From: an uncultured Alphaproteobacteria bacterium | GTDB taxonomy: Bacteria > Pseudomonadota > Alphaproteobacteria > Rhodobacterales > Rhodobacteraceae | NCBI GenBank assembly: GCA_902576905.1 | Contig: CACGWW010000002.1 | Location: 124,001 to 188,000 of the forward strand | DNA length: 64,000 bases | Direction of reading: 5' to 3' | Shown here: piece after piece, positions 49,612 through 53,008 of the stretch | Layout: each line of letters starts with the position of its first letter | Position numbering within the stretch: the stretch's first letter is position 1 | Program-made: the position numbers and the translations under genes | The notes under the pieces: model-generated | Databases searched by the model: none | Seen by the model: the letters and a program-made list of their open reading frames with translations, nothing else | What the model was told of the DNA's origin: nothing

Positions 49612-51210
49612 TTAAACCTGCATTACTTTCTTATTGGTGGGATAAACTTTTTTATGCGCAACCTGTTTCAAATCTGGAATAATCTCATCTAGTATTTCTG
49701 CAGATGCTAATACACCCGGCAATCCTGGTCCAGGATGCGTACCAGCGCCAACAAGAAAGAGATTATCAAGTTCTTCTGATCTATTGTGAGGTCTAAACCA
49801 GGCGCTTTGAAACATTTGAGGTTCCAAAGAAAAACCACTTCCAAAATGGCTCAAATATCTGTCTTTAAAATCAAGCGGAGTCATAACATACTCAGTTTTT
49901 ATCGATTGGCCTAAACCAGGCAAAAGTCTTCTCTCTAAAACATTGAGTATTTTTTTCTTATAATTTTTTTTAATTTTTTTCCAATCAATGTCTGTCTTGA
50001 AACTTAAGTTTGGAACACAAGCCAATACATAGAAAGTATCATCTCCTTTTGGAGCACAAGTTTTATCAGTAACAGAAGGCCTGTGCACATATAAACTCAT
50101 CTCCTGTGGCAACTTTCCTTTTATAAAAATATCGTTAACCTCTTTTTTATAACTTGGGCCTACAAGTATTGTATGGTGCCCAACATCTTTCCATTTTGAT
50201 CTCGTTTTTGACGTACCAAAATGCCAAACAAATAGACTCATGGACCAATTCTTCTTGTCTAATTTGTTTTTGGTCCACCTTTTCTTCTTTTTATGCCCTA
50301 ATAAACTATCATATGTATTCTGAAGATCTGCGTTTGATACTACATAATCCGCGCTAATTTTTTCTCCAGATTCCAACTGGACCCCAATTGCTCTGTTTTC
50401 ATTTGTTAAAATTTTATTAACTGTTGTATTAAGTGTTACCTGACCCCCAGAGGATTTTATTTTTTCTGCCATTTTATTCGCCATGGCTTGCGCTCCTCCA
50501 TGAATATAGTAAACACCAAATCTATGCTCCAAATAATTAACTAAACCCCACATGGACGTCACAGTAAAGGGATTCCCACCTACAAAAAGTGGATGAAAAC
50601 TTAACGCAAACCTCAGCTTTGAGTTGGATACATAGCTCGCAGCACTTCTATAAACGGACCTATCTGCTCTTAGAAGAGCAAAAATTGGAAGAACCTTTAG
50701 AGTATCCCATAGTCTATGCATAGGACTTCTTCCCATTGAGCCCTTTTTTGAAAATGCGAAATTATATTGCCTTTCTGACAAACGCATGAACTTTCGATAT
50801 CCTTTGAGATCATTTGGAGCAAACTTTTTAATTTGAGCTTCAAAATTTGACTTGTTGCCAGAAACTGAAAGAACATCATTATCTTCAAATCGCAAATCAT
50901 AATATGGGTTTAGCTTTTCTATTTTTACATGTTGATTGAGATCATCCCCACATCTCTTCCAAAGTTCTTCAAAATTTTTTGGTAAAGTCAAAATTGTAGG
51001 ACCTAGATCAAATCTATGCCCCTCTTGAGTTTTTGAAGACCCACGACCACCAACTGTTTGCAATCTATCAAAAACATGGACATGATACCCTTTTTCAGAG
51101 AGAAGCATTGCCGCAGACAAGCCTCCAAACCCTGCTCCAATAATAGCAACAGAAGGCTTTTTCACTTCTCTCTCGCCTTCAAAGAACGTTCCGTCGGTCT
51201 TTTTTAACAT
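49612..51210 (-). CDS. crtI: phytoene desaturase
   Basis: The 532-residue FAD enzyme has the dinucleotide motif AIIGAGFGGLSAAMLLSEKG (about 22-41) and the C-terminal LVGAGTHPGPGLPGVLASAEI. It makes neurosporene (three desaturations) in the spheroidene pathway. The start MLKKTDG at ATG 51210 includes about 17 residues before the FAD fold, so an internal start is possible. It diverges from crtA across an intergenic stretch with one PpsR box. Confidence 0.95.
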   Translation of the reverse strand: MLKKTDGTFFEGEREVKKPSVAIIGAGFGGLSAAMLLSEKGYHVHVFDRLQTVGGRGSSKTQEGHRFDLGPTILTLPKNFEELWKRCGDDLNQHVKIEKLNPYYDLRFEDNDVLSVSGNKSNFEAQIKKFAPNDLKGYRKFMRLSERQYNFAFSKKGSMGRSPMHRLWDTLKVLPIFALLRADRSVYRSAASYVSNSKLRFALSFHPLFVGGNPFTVTSMWGLVNYLEHRFGVYYIHGGAQAMANKMAEKIKSSGGQVTLNTTVNKILTNENRAIGVQLESGEKISADYVVSNADLQNTYDSLLGHKKKKRWTKNKLDKKNWSMSLFVWHFGTSKTRSKWKDVGHHTILVGPSYKKEVNDIFIKGKLPQEMSLYVHRPSVTDKTCAPKGDDTFYVLACVPNLSFKTDIDWKKIKKNYKKKILNVLERRLLPGLGQSIKTEYVMTPLDFKDRYLSHFGSGFSLEPQMFQSAWFRPHNRSEELDNLFLVGAGTHPGPGLPGVLASAEILDEIIPDLKQVAHKKVYPTNKKVMQV

Positions 51211-51225
51211 ATCTGATATTAAACA

Positions 51226-51243
51226 TGTCAGTTTTTTTTGACA
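51226..51243. promoter_or_regulatory. PpsR/CrtJ binding box, crtI-crtA region
   Basis: Exact TGT-N12-ACA with TGT 51226-51228 and ACA 51241-51243. Its right arm is the TTGACA of the crtA promoter. It is the only box found in this gap. Confidence 0.82.
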
Positions 51244-51266
51244 ATATTTTTAATAAAAAATATGCT
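51238..51266 (+). promoter_or_regulatory. candidate crtA promoter
   Basis: TTGACA (51238-51243) and TATGCT (51261-51266) are exactly 17 bp apart, giving a predicted start of transcription near 51273. The -35 lies in the PpsR box. Confidence 0.7.
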
Positions 51267-51297
51267 TTGAATTGAATAAGCGATTTTGGAGTAGATA

Positions 51298-52002
51298 ATC
51301 AAAACAATTACCATAAGTTTTTTTAGGTTCCAGTCCATATTTGGCAAACTATGGGCTTTTTCCCATATGGGGTTTTCACATTTATATATGAGAAGGATGA
51401 AAGGCCTACAGTTTTATAAACTTTTTGGTAGTGGTGTGGGGGAAGGCTTTACCCCTGTATTAAACCCTAATGTTTATGCTATCATGGCGGTATGGGATAG
51501 TGTGACCGATGCGGATAAAAACATAGCCAACTCATCAATTTTCAAACAATATAAAAATAGATCCAAAGAGAACTGGACGCTATATCTAAAACCTACCAGA
51601 TCTTGGGGCAGCTGGGATAAAAGAAACCCGTTTAAAATAGCTGATAACATCGATCAAACATTTCCTGTAGTGGCGCTTACAAGAGCAACAATAAAAACAA
51701 GTATCCTTTTAAAGTTTTGGAAAAGAGTGCCAGATATATCAAAAACAATTGGGCTCAATAGAGATGTTTTATTTAAAATCGGCTTAGGAGAAATTCCATG
51801 GTTTCACCAAGTCACCTTCTCAATATGGCCAAGTCAGGAAAGTATGGATCAATTTGCTAGAAATTTTGGGCCTCACAAGGAAGCCATCAAAGCTGTAAGG
51901 GAAAATAATTGGTTTAAAGAGGAACTCTATGCAAGATTTGTAATAGAAAAGCAAATCGGCCAATGGCCAGAAATAAATATAATTAAGGAAGCAAGTGAAT
52001 AA
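51298..52002 (+). CDS. crtA: spheroidene monooxygenase, ATC start
   Basis: The enzyme adds a keto group to spheroidene in air, giving spheroidenone. The N-terminus needed by homology, I/M-K-T-I-T-I-S-F-F-R-F, is encoded from ATC 51298, and FGKLWAFSHMGFSHL follows in frame. There is no ATG, GTG or TTG upstream; the first ATG, at 51367, would delete 23 conserved residues. GGAG at 51288-51291 is 6 bases before the ATC. This gives 234 residues, the usual size. It overlaps bchI by 8 bp. The promoter with a PpsR box is directly upstream. Confidence 0.9.
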   Translation: MKTITISFFRFQSIFGKLWAFSHMGFSHLYMRRMKGLQFYKLFGSGVGEGFTPVLNPNVYAIMAVWDSVTDADKNIANSSIFKQYKNRSKENWTLYLKPTRSWGSWDKRNPFKIADNIDQTFPVVALTRATIKTSILLKFWKRVPDISKTIGLNRDVLFKIGLGEIPWFHQVTFSIWPSQESMDQFARNFGPHKEAIKAVRENNWFKEELYARFVIEKQIGQWPEINIIKEASE

Positions 52003-53008
52003 GTATTTTCCATTCTCAGCAATAGTTGGGCAAGAACAAATGAAACTTGCTCTGATTTTGACAGCAATCGATCCATCAATTGGAGGCGTACTCGTATTTG
52101 GAGATCGCGGCACTGGGAAATCAACCATTGTTAGATCGCTCGCGGGATTATTACCAAAGCAAAATTTTGTAATAGATTGCCCCTTTAATTGCCAGAATTC
52201 ATTTAATCTATGCGATCAGTGTAAAAAAAAGAAGTCTCTTGAGTTTGAAGAACGTTCAACCCCAGTTATAGATCTTCCCTTGGGGTCAACAGAAGACAGA
52301 GTTGTTGGATCACTAAATTTAGAAATTGCTTTGACTGAGGGCAGGAAAGTATTTGAACCAGGCTTATTAGCCAAAGCAAATAGCGGCTTCCTTTATATAG
52401 ATGAGGTCAACTTGCTAGAGGATCATATCGTTGATCTGCTTTTAGACGTTGCCGCATCAGGAGAGAACCTAGTTGAAAGGGATGGAATTTCGATAAGACA
52501 CTCATCAAAGTTCGTCTTAATTGGTTCTGGGAATCCCGAAGAGGGTGAACTCAGACCGCAGCTACTTGATAGATTTGGTTTCTCAGTAAATGTGGGTTCC
52601 CCCGCCGAAATATCGCAAAGAATTGAAGTGATTAAAAGAAGAGATGAGTTTGAAAGAGATCCTCAAGCTTTTTTACGCAAATGGAGACGGAAAGATTTAA
52701 CAGTTAAAAAAAAAATAATTCACGCAAAAAATACTTTAGATAACATTAAGCTTGACGATAGTATTTTATCAAAGTGTGCTGAAATTTGTATCGCGGTTGG
52801 CTCTGATGGATTGAGGGGAGAACTAACACTTTTGAGGGCTTTAAGAGCACTCTGTGCGTTTAATGAGACAACAAAGCCAACTTTAAAGGATATTAGAGAG
52901 ATAGCTGTTTACACTCTTAGCCACAGACTGAGAAGGGATCCATTGGATGATACAAGTTCAGAGGTGCGCGTGAAAAGAAAAGTCAATGAACTGATAGATG
53001 GCAAATAA
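51995..53008 (+). CDS. bchI: magnesium chelatase subunit I
   Basis: The 337-residue AAA+ ATPase starts at GTG 51995, overlapping crtA by 8 bp. It has Walker A GDRGTGKST (36-44), GFLYIDEVNLLEDHIVDLLLDVAASG as Walker B region, and SGNPEEGELRPQLLDRFG. It drives magnesium insertion with BchD and BchH. The four-cysteine insert around CPFNCQNSFNLCDQC is typical of BchI. It overlaps bchD by 11 bp. Confidence 0.97.
   Translation: MNKYFPFSAIVGQEQMKLALILTAIDPSIGGVLVFGDRGTGKSTIVRSLAGLLPKQNFVIDCPFNCQNSFNLCDQCKKKKSLEFEERSTPVIDLPLGSTEDRVVGSLNLEIALTEGRKVFEPGLLAKANSGFLYIDEVNLLEDHIVDLLLDVAASGENLVERDGISIRHSSKFVLIGSGNPEEGELRPQLLDRFGFSVNVGSPAEISQRIEVIKRRDEFERDPQAFLRKWRRKDLTVKKKIIHAKNTLDNIKLDDSILSKCAEICIAVGSDGLRGELTLLRALRALCAFNETTKPTLKDIREIAVYTLSHRLRRDPLDDTSSEVRVKRKVNELIDGK

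Follow-up and report, generated by a model that had tools for sequence, protein, structure and literature searches.

In a 64,000-nucleotide stretch of DNA from an uncultured member of the Rhodobacteraceae (the window), the reading frame of crtA, the spheroidene monooxygenase gene, extends upstream of the ATG at which a program-made list of open reading frames places its start (51367), raising the question of which codon begins the protein. The original prediction, made from the sequence alone, proposed ATC 51298, where the crtA frame reads K-T-I-T-I-S-F-F-R-F six bases downstream of a GGAG. The comparisons below support that interpretation. The favoured reading is that crtA starts at ATC 51298 and that AUH (AUU, AUC or AUA) is a family-wide, selected start giving low or IF3-tunable CrtA, to which a probability of roughly 0.87 is assigned; initiation at this codon and its control by IF3 are what we infer from the pattern.

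The crtA start region in the window

The sequence agrees with the description given in the original prediction: GGAG is followed by TAG, ATA (51295-51297) and ATC, leaving a spacer of six bases between GGAG and ATC, and the codons after ATC (AAA ACA ATT ACC ATA AGT TTT TTT AGG TTC) encode the expected crtA N-terminus (Table 1). The statement that a stop at 51292 leaves no ATG, GTG or TTG ahead of 51367 was borne out by codon-by-codon reading, which found no in-frame ATG, GTG or TTG between the TAG and ATG 51367 (codon 24).

A start at the in-frame ATA was rejected, as its spacer is just three bases and relatives L007, L010 and L011 have ACA, CAC and TTA there. Read-through from an in-frame ATG at 51262 (ATG CTT TGA) was likewise rejected, with three in-frame stops lying ahead of ATC. 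This minimal ORF (51262-51270) lies inside the -10-like element of Table 1, is present in close congeners too, and is probably only promoter sequence.

Table 1 Features of the crtA start region and neighbouring genes in the window
Feature	Position	Strand	Basis
crtI, divergent neighbour, ordinary ATG	49612..51210	-	By eye and gene position
TGT-N12-ACA, putative PpsR/CrtJ-type operator between crtI and crtA	51226..51243	.	Sequence match
Promoter-like TTGACA-17-TATGCT, leader of about 25 nt expected	51238..51266	+	By eye
Shine-Dalgarno core GGAG	51288..51291	+	Sequence; duplex energy -5.9 before ATC
In-frame TAG closing the frame upstream	51292..51294	+	Sequence
Proposed crtA start codon ATC, read as fMet	51298..51300	+	Column ATT/ATC/ATA in 67/177 relatives, ATG in 50/177
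crtA, spheroidene monooxygenase, 234 codons plus TAA	51298..52002	+	NF045923, 320.2 bits, profile positions 2-224
Codons 2-23, conserved coding segment ahead of the inner ATG	51301..51366	+	pN/pS 0.18; model with strand at 3-10, helix at 14-32
Inner ATG (Met24), rejected as main start	51367..51369	+	Met here in 177/177 relatives
bchI, GTG start, 8 nt overlap with the crtA end	51995..53008	+	Overlap 51995-52002

The gene context crtI / crtA-bchI-bchD, which is usual for such loci and not strictly defining, is present in the window, with the crtI-like and bchD-like frames named by eye. In named plasmid-borne crtA records, crtA, bchI and bchD are annotated in that order in 8/8 and a divergent crtI in 7/8. 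Of 67 loci in which the junction of crtA and bchI was examined, 52 have an overlap of 4 or 8 nt (15 four-nt and 11 eight-nt overlaps in AUH loci, 17 and one where a canonical codon occupies the start column, and eight four-nt overlaps in loci with a shifted start), which suggests translational coupling.

The start column in crtA relatives

Among 101 genomes searched, crtA was found in 29, 12 of which, including that of the window, belong to the window's genus. The start column, the position aligned with ATC 51298, is ATT in 11 of these 12 distinct congeneric loci, ATC in one (the window) and ATG in none, and AUH is retained throughout the genus over protein identities of 73-100%. A canonical codon (ATG, GTG or TTG) is absent back to the upstream in-frame stop in ten of the 12; L011 and L012 have an ATG 13 codons upstream of the column, without a Shine-Dalgarno.

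A search of the family with the NF045923 profile gave matches in 171 of 394 genomes, of which 153 were read (150 listed and three more, the weaker matches being left out). Together with other relatives these gave 191 loci, or 177 distinct loci once identical coding sequences had been removed. The start column in the 177 loci is ATG in 50, ATT in 45, ATC in 18, ATA in four, GTG in eight and TTG in three, and CTG in none. Another 45 loci have some other codon at the column and an ATG, GTG or TTG within six codons upstream, and four (L091, L179, L219 and L220) fit no start class, possibly because of other start positions or errors. The presence of ATG in 50 and AUH in 67 loci at one and the same column identifies it as the start column and argues that the AUH codon is not an error, which upholds the claim that crtA begins at ATC. 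The original prediction had also proposed looking for ATG at this position in relatives: it is found in none of the 12 congeneric loci but does occur in 50/177 wider relatives, and ATG in distant rather than near relatives is evidence for the position of the start and not for a sequencing error.

The AUH codon is specific to this column. Where columns -6 to 0 are free of canonical codons (59 loci), column 0 is AUH in 55, compared with 0 to 18 of the 44-59 loci examined at each of 14 neighbouring columns; where the entire open frame as far as the column offers none, AUH is present in 32/32. An AUH codon is therefore conserved at the orthologous start column without a better start (67/177 loci overall, 32/32 in that subset and 12/12 in the genus). 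Some canonical codon lies upstream in frame in 35 of the 67 AUH loci, in 24 of these 35 between the operator and AUH, and the Shine-Dalgarno is stronger at AUH than at the nearest such codon in 35/35. Canonical codons close to the column (GTG at -1 in L117, GTG at -3 in L024 and L078, ATG at -4 in L043 and L046) are possible starts in those loci.

Within the 153-locus survey subset, which holds nearly one genome per genus, AUH occurs in 52 loci. It is also found in 99% complete genomes of other genera (e.g. L020, L022 and L024, the last with ATT) and, as ATA, in a named isolate, Roseovarius sp. TE539 (L048); L113 has ATG at the column. All eight named plasmid-borne crtA records, which were counted apart from the 177 loci except where sequences coincide, are annotated as starting with ATG, GTG or TTG, either at the column or one to three codons before it. 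Outside the family, six genomes were matched in the class search (three of them partial matches) and two in the phylum search. Three loci outside the family have ATG at the column (L233 and L234) or TTG one codon upstream (L231), and the N-terminal motif used to place the column did not fit either phylum-search locus. On these alignments, the AUH start of crtA is a family-wide feature of the Rhodobacteraceae, spread over many genera. The non-canonical start of the original prediction stands, with its scope widened from a single genome to the family.

The operator provides an independent landmark for the start column, as judged from the position of its motif. An exact TGT-N12-ACA, the PpsR/CrtJ motif (PMC6199135), lies within 160 nt upstream of crtA in 173/177 loci, compared with 6.1 expected by shuffling. 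In loci with a box, it ends 16-25 nt before the column in 33/65 AUH loci, 21/48 AUG loci and 88/173 loci overall, so that little room is often left between operator and ribosome-binding site; the box in the window ends 54 nt from ATC 51298.

When the AUG and AUH states were placed on a quick tree of the 177 proteins (start residue omitted), parsimony gave 21 changes on a topology with weak support, 35 of its 174 inner branches being starred. Disjoint starred clades hold both states (L024 with ATT and L148 with ATG; L159 with ATG and L182 with ATC; L062 and L073 with ATG and L068, L098 and L104 with AUH), making at least three AUG/AUH exchanges well supported. The best reading of these sequence patterns is that selection has long maintained AUH as an alternative to AUG at the crtA start in the Rhodobacteraceae, with repeated exchange between the two.

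Shine-Dalgarno strength, codon choice and competing readings

A strong and well-spaced Shine-Dalgarno, with GGAG at a spacer of 6-9, precedes 47/67 AUH starts. The mean duplex energy with the anti-Shine-Dalgarno is -7.5 for AUH loci, -5.5 for AUG loci, -5.0 for shifted starts and -8.4 for GUG/UUG starts (n=11), and AUH differs from AUG with p 0.0002 and from shifted starts with p 1e-7 (Mann-Whitney, relatedness of loci ignored). As GUG and UUG starts have an equally strong Shine-Dalgarno, the strengthening accompanies any weak start and is not special to AUH. Codon choice points the same way: AUU, AUC and AUA occur at the start in the ratio 45:18:4 vs 15:43:9 expected from the Ile codons of the same genes, and in GC3-rich genes AUU is found at 27/46 starts where seven were predicted. 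An ordinary Ile codon would follow usage, and the preference for AUU against usage supports AUH as a start. Leader structure was rejected as a regulator, since the folding energy of the leader (-25..+35) gave no clear separation between AUG and AUH loci (p 0.08).

The loss of canonical starts was compared with that in neighbouring genes, using those crtA loci that extend far enough to include the control gene. The open frame offers a canonical start ahead of the conserved motif in 68/68 bchI, 123/123 crtI and 145/177 crtA loci, and in bchI a canonical codon lies at one single column in 56 of 68. The crtI gene is the weaker control because its motif lies further from the start, leaving more room for chance canonical codons. 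This comparison bears on the possibility that AUH, although the start, serves no regulation, having arisen from AUG by neutral drift and been tolerated owing to a strong Shine-Dalgarno and a low demand for CrtA. Such drift would fit the alternation of AUG and AUH among relatives, with the 21 changes counted on a weakly supported tree, and the presence of AUG in 50/177 loci. However, AUH has been retained over the full range of protein identity within the genus, neither the enrichment of AUU against Ile usage nor the strengthened Shine-Dalgarno is predicted by drift alone, and bchI and crtI show no comparable loss of canonical starts, which together make drift without regulatory meaning an unlikely account.

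Use of both starts, with a scarce long form from AUH and a short form with another role from the inner ATG, would resemble the case of AerR in Rhodobacter capsulatus, which according to PMC6199135 has two isoforms and an internal CTG start, and would agree with the invariance of Met24 (177/177). Met24 is nevertheless invariant whatever the start class, the Shine-Dalgarno before it is poor (duplex energy in the window -2.4 before the inner ATG vs -5.9 before ATC), and the short form would be without a core strand predicted by the structural model; a two-start arrangement is accordingly regarded as improbable.

A single start at the inner ATG, giving a protein shorter by 23 residues, is considered highly improbable. 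In its favour are the same invariance, the status of ATG as the usual start and its choice in the program-made list. Met24 is, however, equally invariant where column 1 is ATG and is thus simply a conserved residue, and in 64/67 loci the duplex before AUH is stronger than the one before the inner ATG. The original prediction held that a start at 51367 would drop a conserved N-terminus, and codons 2-23 are indeed as constrained as the codons after them: pN/pS across the 12 congeneric loci is 0.18 in this segment and 0.19 downstream of it, and among the ten closest 0.09 and 0.13, respectively. By simple count the segment appears less conserved (16/22 codons vary, 11 with an amino-acid change, vs 138/177 and 60 in the codons after it), and the coding argument therefore rests on the pN/pS ratio and on the S-[FL]-[FY]-R-F motif of the N-terminal segment, which is conserved among crtA relatives. 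Judged by this ratio and motif, codons 2-23 are under purifying selection. A decayed crtA is also ruled out by pN/pS.

The protein comparisons agree with the longer form. The ATC frame scores 320.2 bits against NF045923 from profile position 2 onward, above the curated NCBIfam cut-off of 300, whereas the frame from ATG 51367 scores 291.2 bits from position 24 onward and falls below it. In a structural model of CrtA (mean pLDDT 79.6), a strand at residues 3-10 and a helix at 14-32 form the predicted N-terminus, and a start at codon 24 would cost the protein this strand and roughly half of the helix. Foldseek hits of the model are distant and include ABM-like monooxygenases and heme aldoxime dehydratases, with query TM values of at most 0.60 among the best 50; according to PMC10604819, CrtA is a ketolase that requires oxygen and carries a five-coordinated heme. 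No Pfam family was matched at E 0.001, and no sequence relative in the PDB was found at E 1.

A sequencing, amplification or assembly error hiding a true ATG has a negligible chance of being correct: the window genome is incomplete (77%) and its named congeners carry isolate names resembling those of single-cell assemblies, but 12/12 congeneric loci with ATT or ATC exclude a single-base error in one genome, and AUH recurs in the 99% complete genomes and the Roseovarius isolate named above.

Known AUH starts and a possible link to IF3

If crtA starts at ATC 51298, initiator tRNA would be used at this codon to give the full 234-residue CrtA. Initiation at AUH would be weak because IF3 discriminates against such codons, the stronger Shine-Dalgarno would offset this in part, and the expected outcome would be low or IF3-tunable CrtA from the crtA-bchI-bchD operon, whose later genes would be needed in larger amount. 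IF3 inhibits initiation at ATT, ATC and CTG (PMC6199135) and, in E. coli, discriminates against the AUU with which its own gene begins (PMC9410913). As crtA precedes bchI, a weak crtA start would lower CrtA and not the Mg-chelatase mRNA, unless coupling transmits the effect. By this analysis, the AUH start would lower the output of CrtA and might render it sensitive to IF3.

One of the closest parallels within the class is infC, where AUH was read by eye at the start of 30/30 alphaproteobacterial loci (AUA in 25 and AUC in five; L184-L213, a sample of 30 of 52 matches), including AUC in three congeneric loci (L208, L212 and L213); infC was not found in the genome of the window, an incomplete assembly. 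Like crtA, infC combines a conserved AUH start with a Shine-Dalgarno, but it has AUH throughout and mostly as AUA, whereas crtA alternates with AUG and prefers AUU. As CrtA is a carotenoid enzyme, autoregulation of the IF3 kind is not on offer as an explanation.

Outside infC, pcnB of E. coli resembles crtA in having a weak, expression-limiting AUU start; PMC9410913 describes it for E. coli, whereas crtA has all three AUH codons in many genera of one family. In Staphylococcus aureus, ccpN (AUA) and cvfC1 (AUU) share with crtA a conserved non-canonical start and a strong extended Shine-Dalgarno, and these two genes and citZ (AUA) gave about 10% of an AUG reporter in poor medium, with ccpN reaching as much as 30% in rich medium (PMC13009471). 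The starts of ccpN, cvfC1 and citZ were proven by ribosome profiling and reporters according to that source, whereas the crtA start is predicted from sequence; crtA further differs from the S. aureus genes in being a member of the photosynthesis gene cluster and in switching between AUG and AUH. The short isoform of the photosynthesis regulator AerR is likewise a product of non-canonical initiation, for which the authors invoke IF3, in a purple bacterium, Rhodobacter capsulatus, that has a crtA-bchI operon, but there an internal CUG serves as a second start that yields an isoform (PMC6199135), whereas AUH is the primary start of crtA. In the open-access literature searched, no account of a non-canonical crtA start was found, and crtA is, as far as that literature shows, a newly seen case in the known class of conserved AUH starts.

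A broader proposal can be put forward tentatively, as a possibility on which doubts prevail. The crtA and infC genes may form a set read by IF3, in which AUH would tie the conversion of spheroidene to spheroidenone to IF3 and the state of the ribosome, adding a translational layer over the PpsR operator, which in roughly half of the loci lies only 16-25 nt ahead of the start codon, and lineages would enter or leave this set by a single-base exchange between AUG and AUH. A photosystem phenotype of pifC, the IF3 homologue of R. sphaeroides, was reportedly described by Babic in 1997 (cited in PMC6199135); no claim is made that crtA explains it.

Few conserved AUH starts are on record in bacteria, and the present one is widespread in a pigment enzyme of a phototroph-rich family. 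Its repeated exchange with AUG provides natural matched pairs for testing the purpose of a weak start codon. Annotation pipelines confined to ATG, GTG and TTG risk truncating crtA, or missing it altogether, in genomes where its start is AUH; in the window, the protein cut to 51367 falls below the NF045923 naming cut-off.
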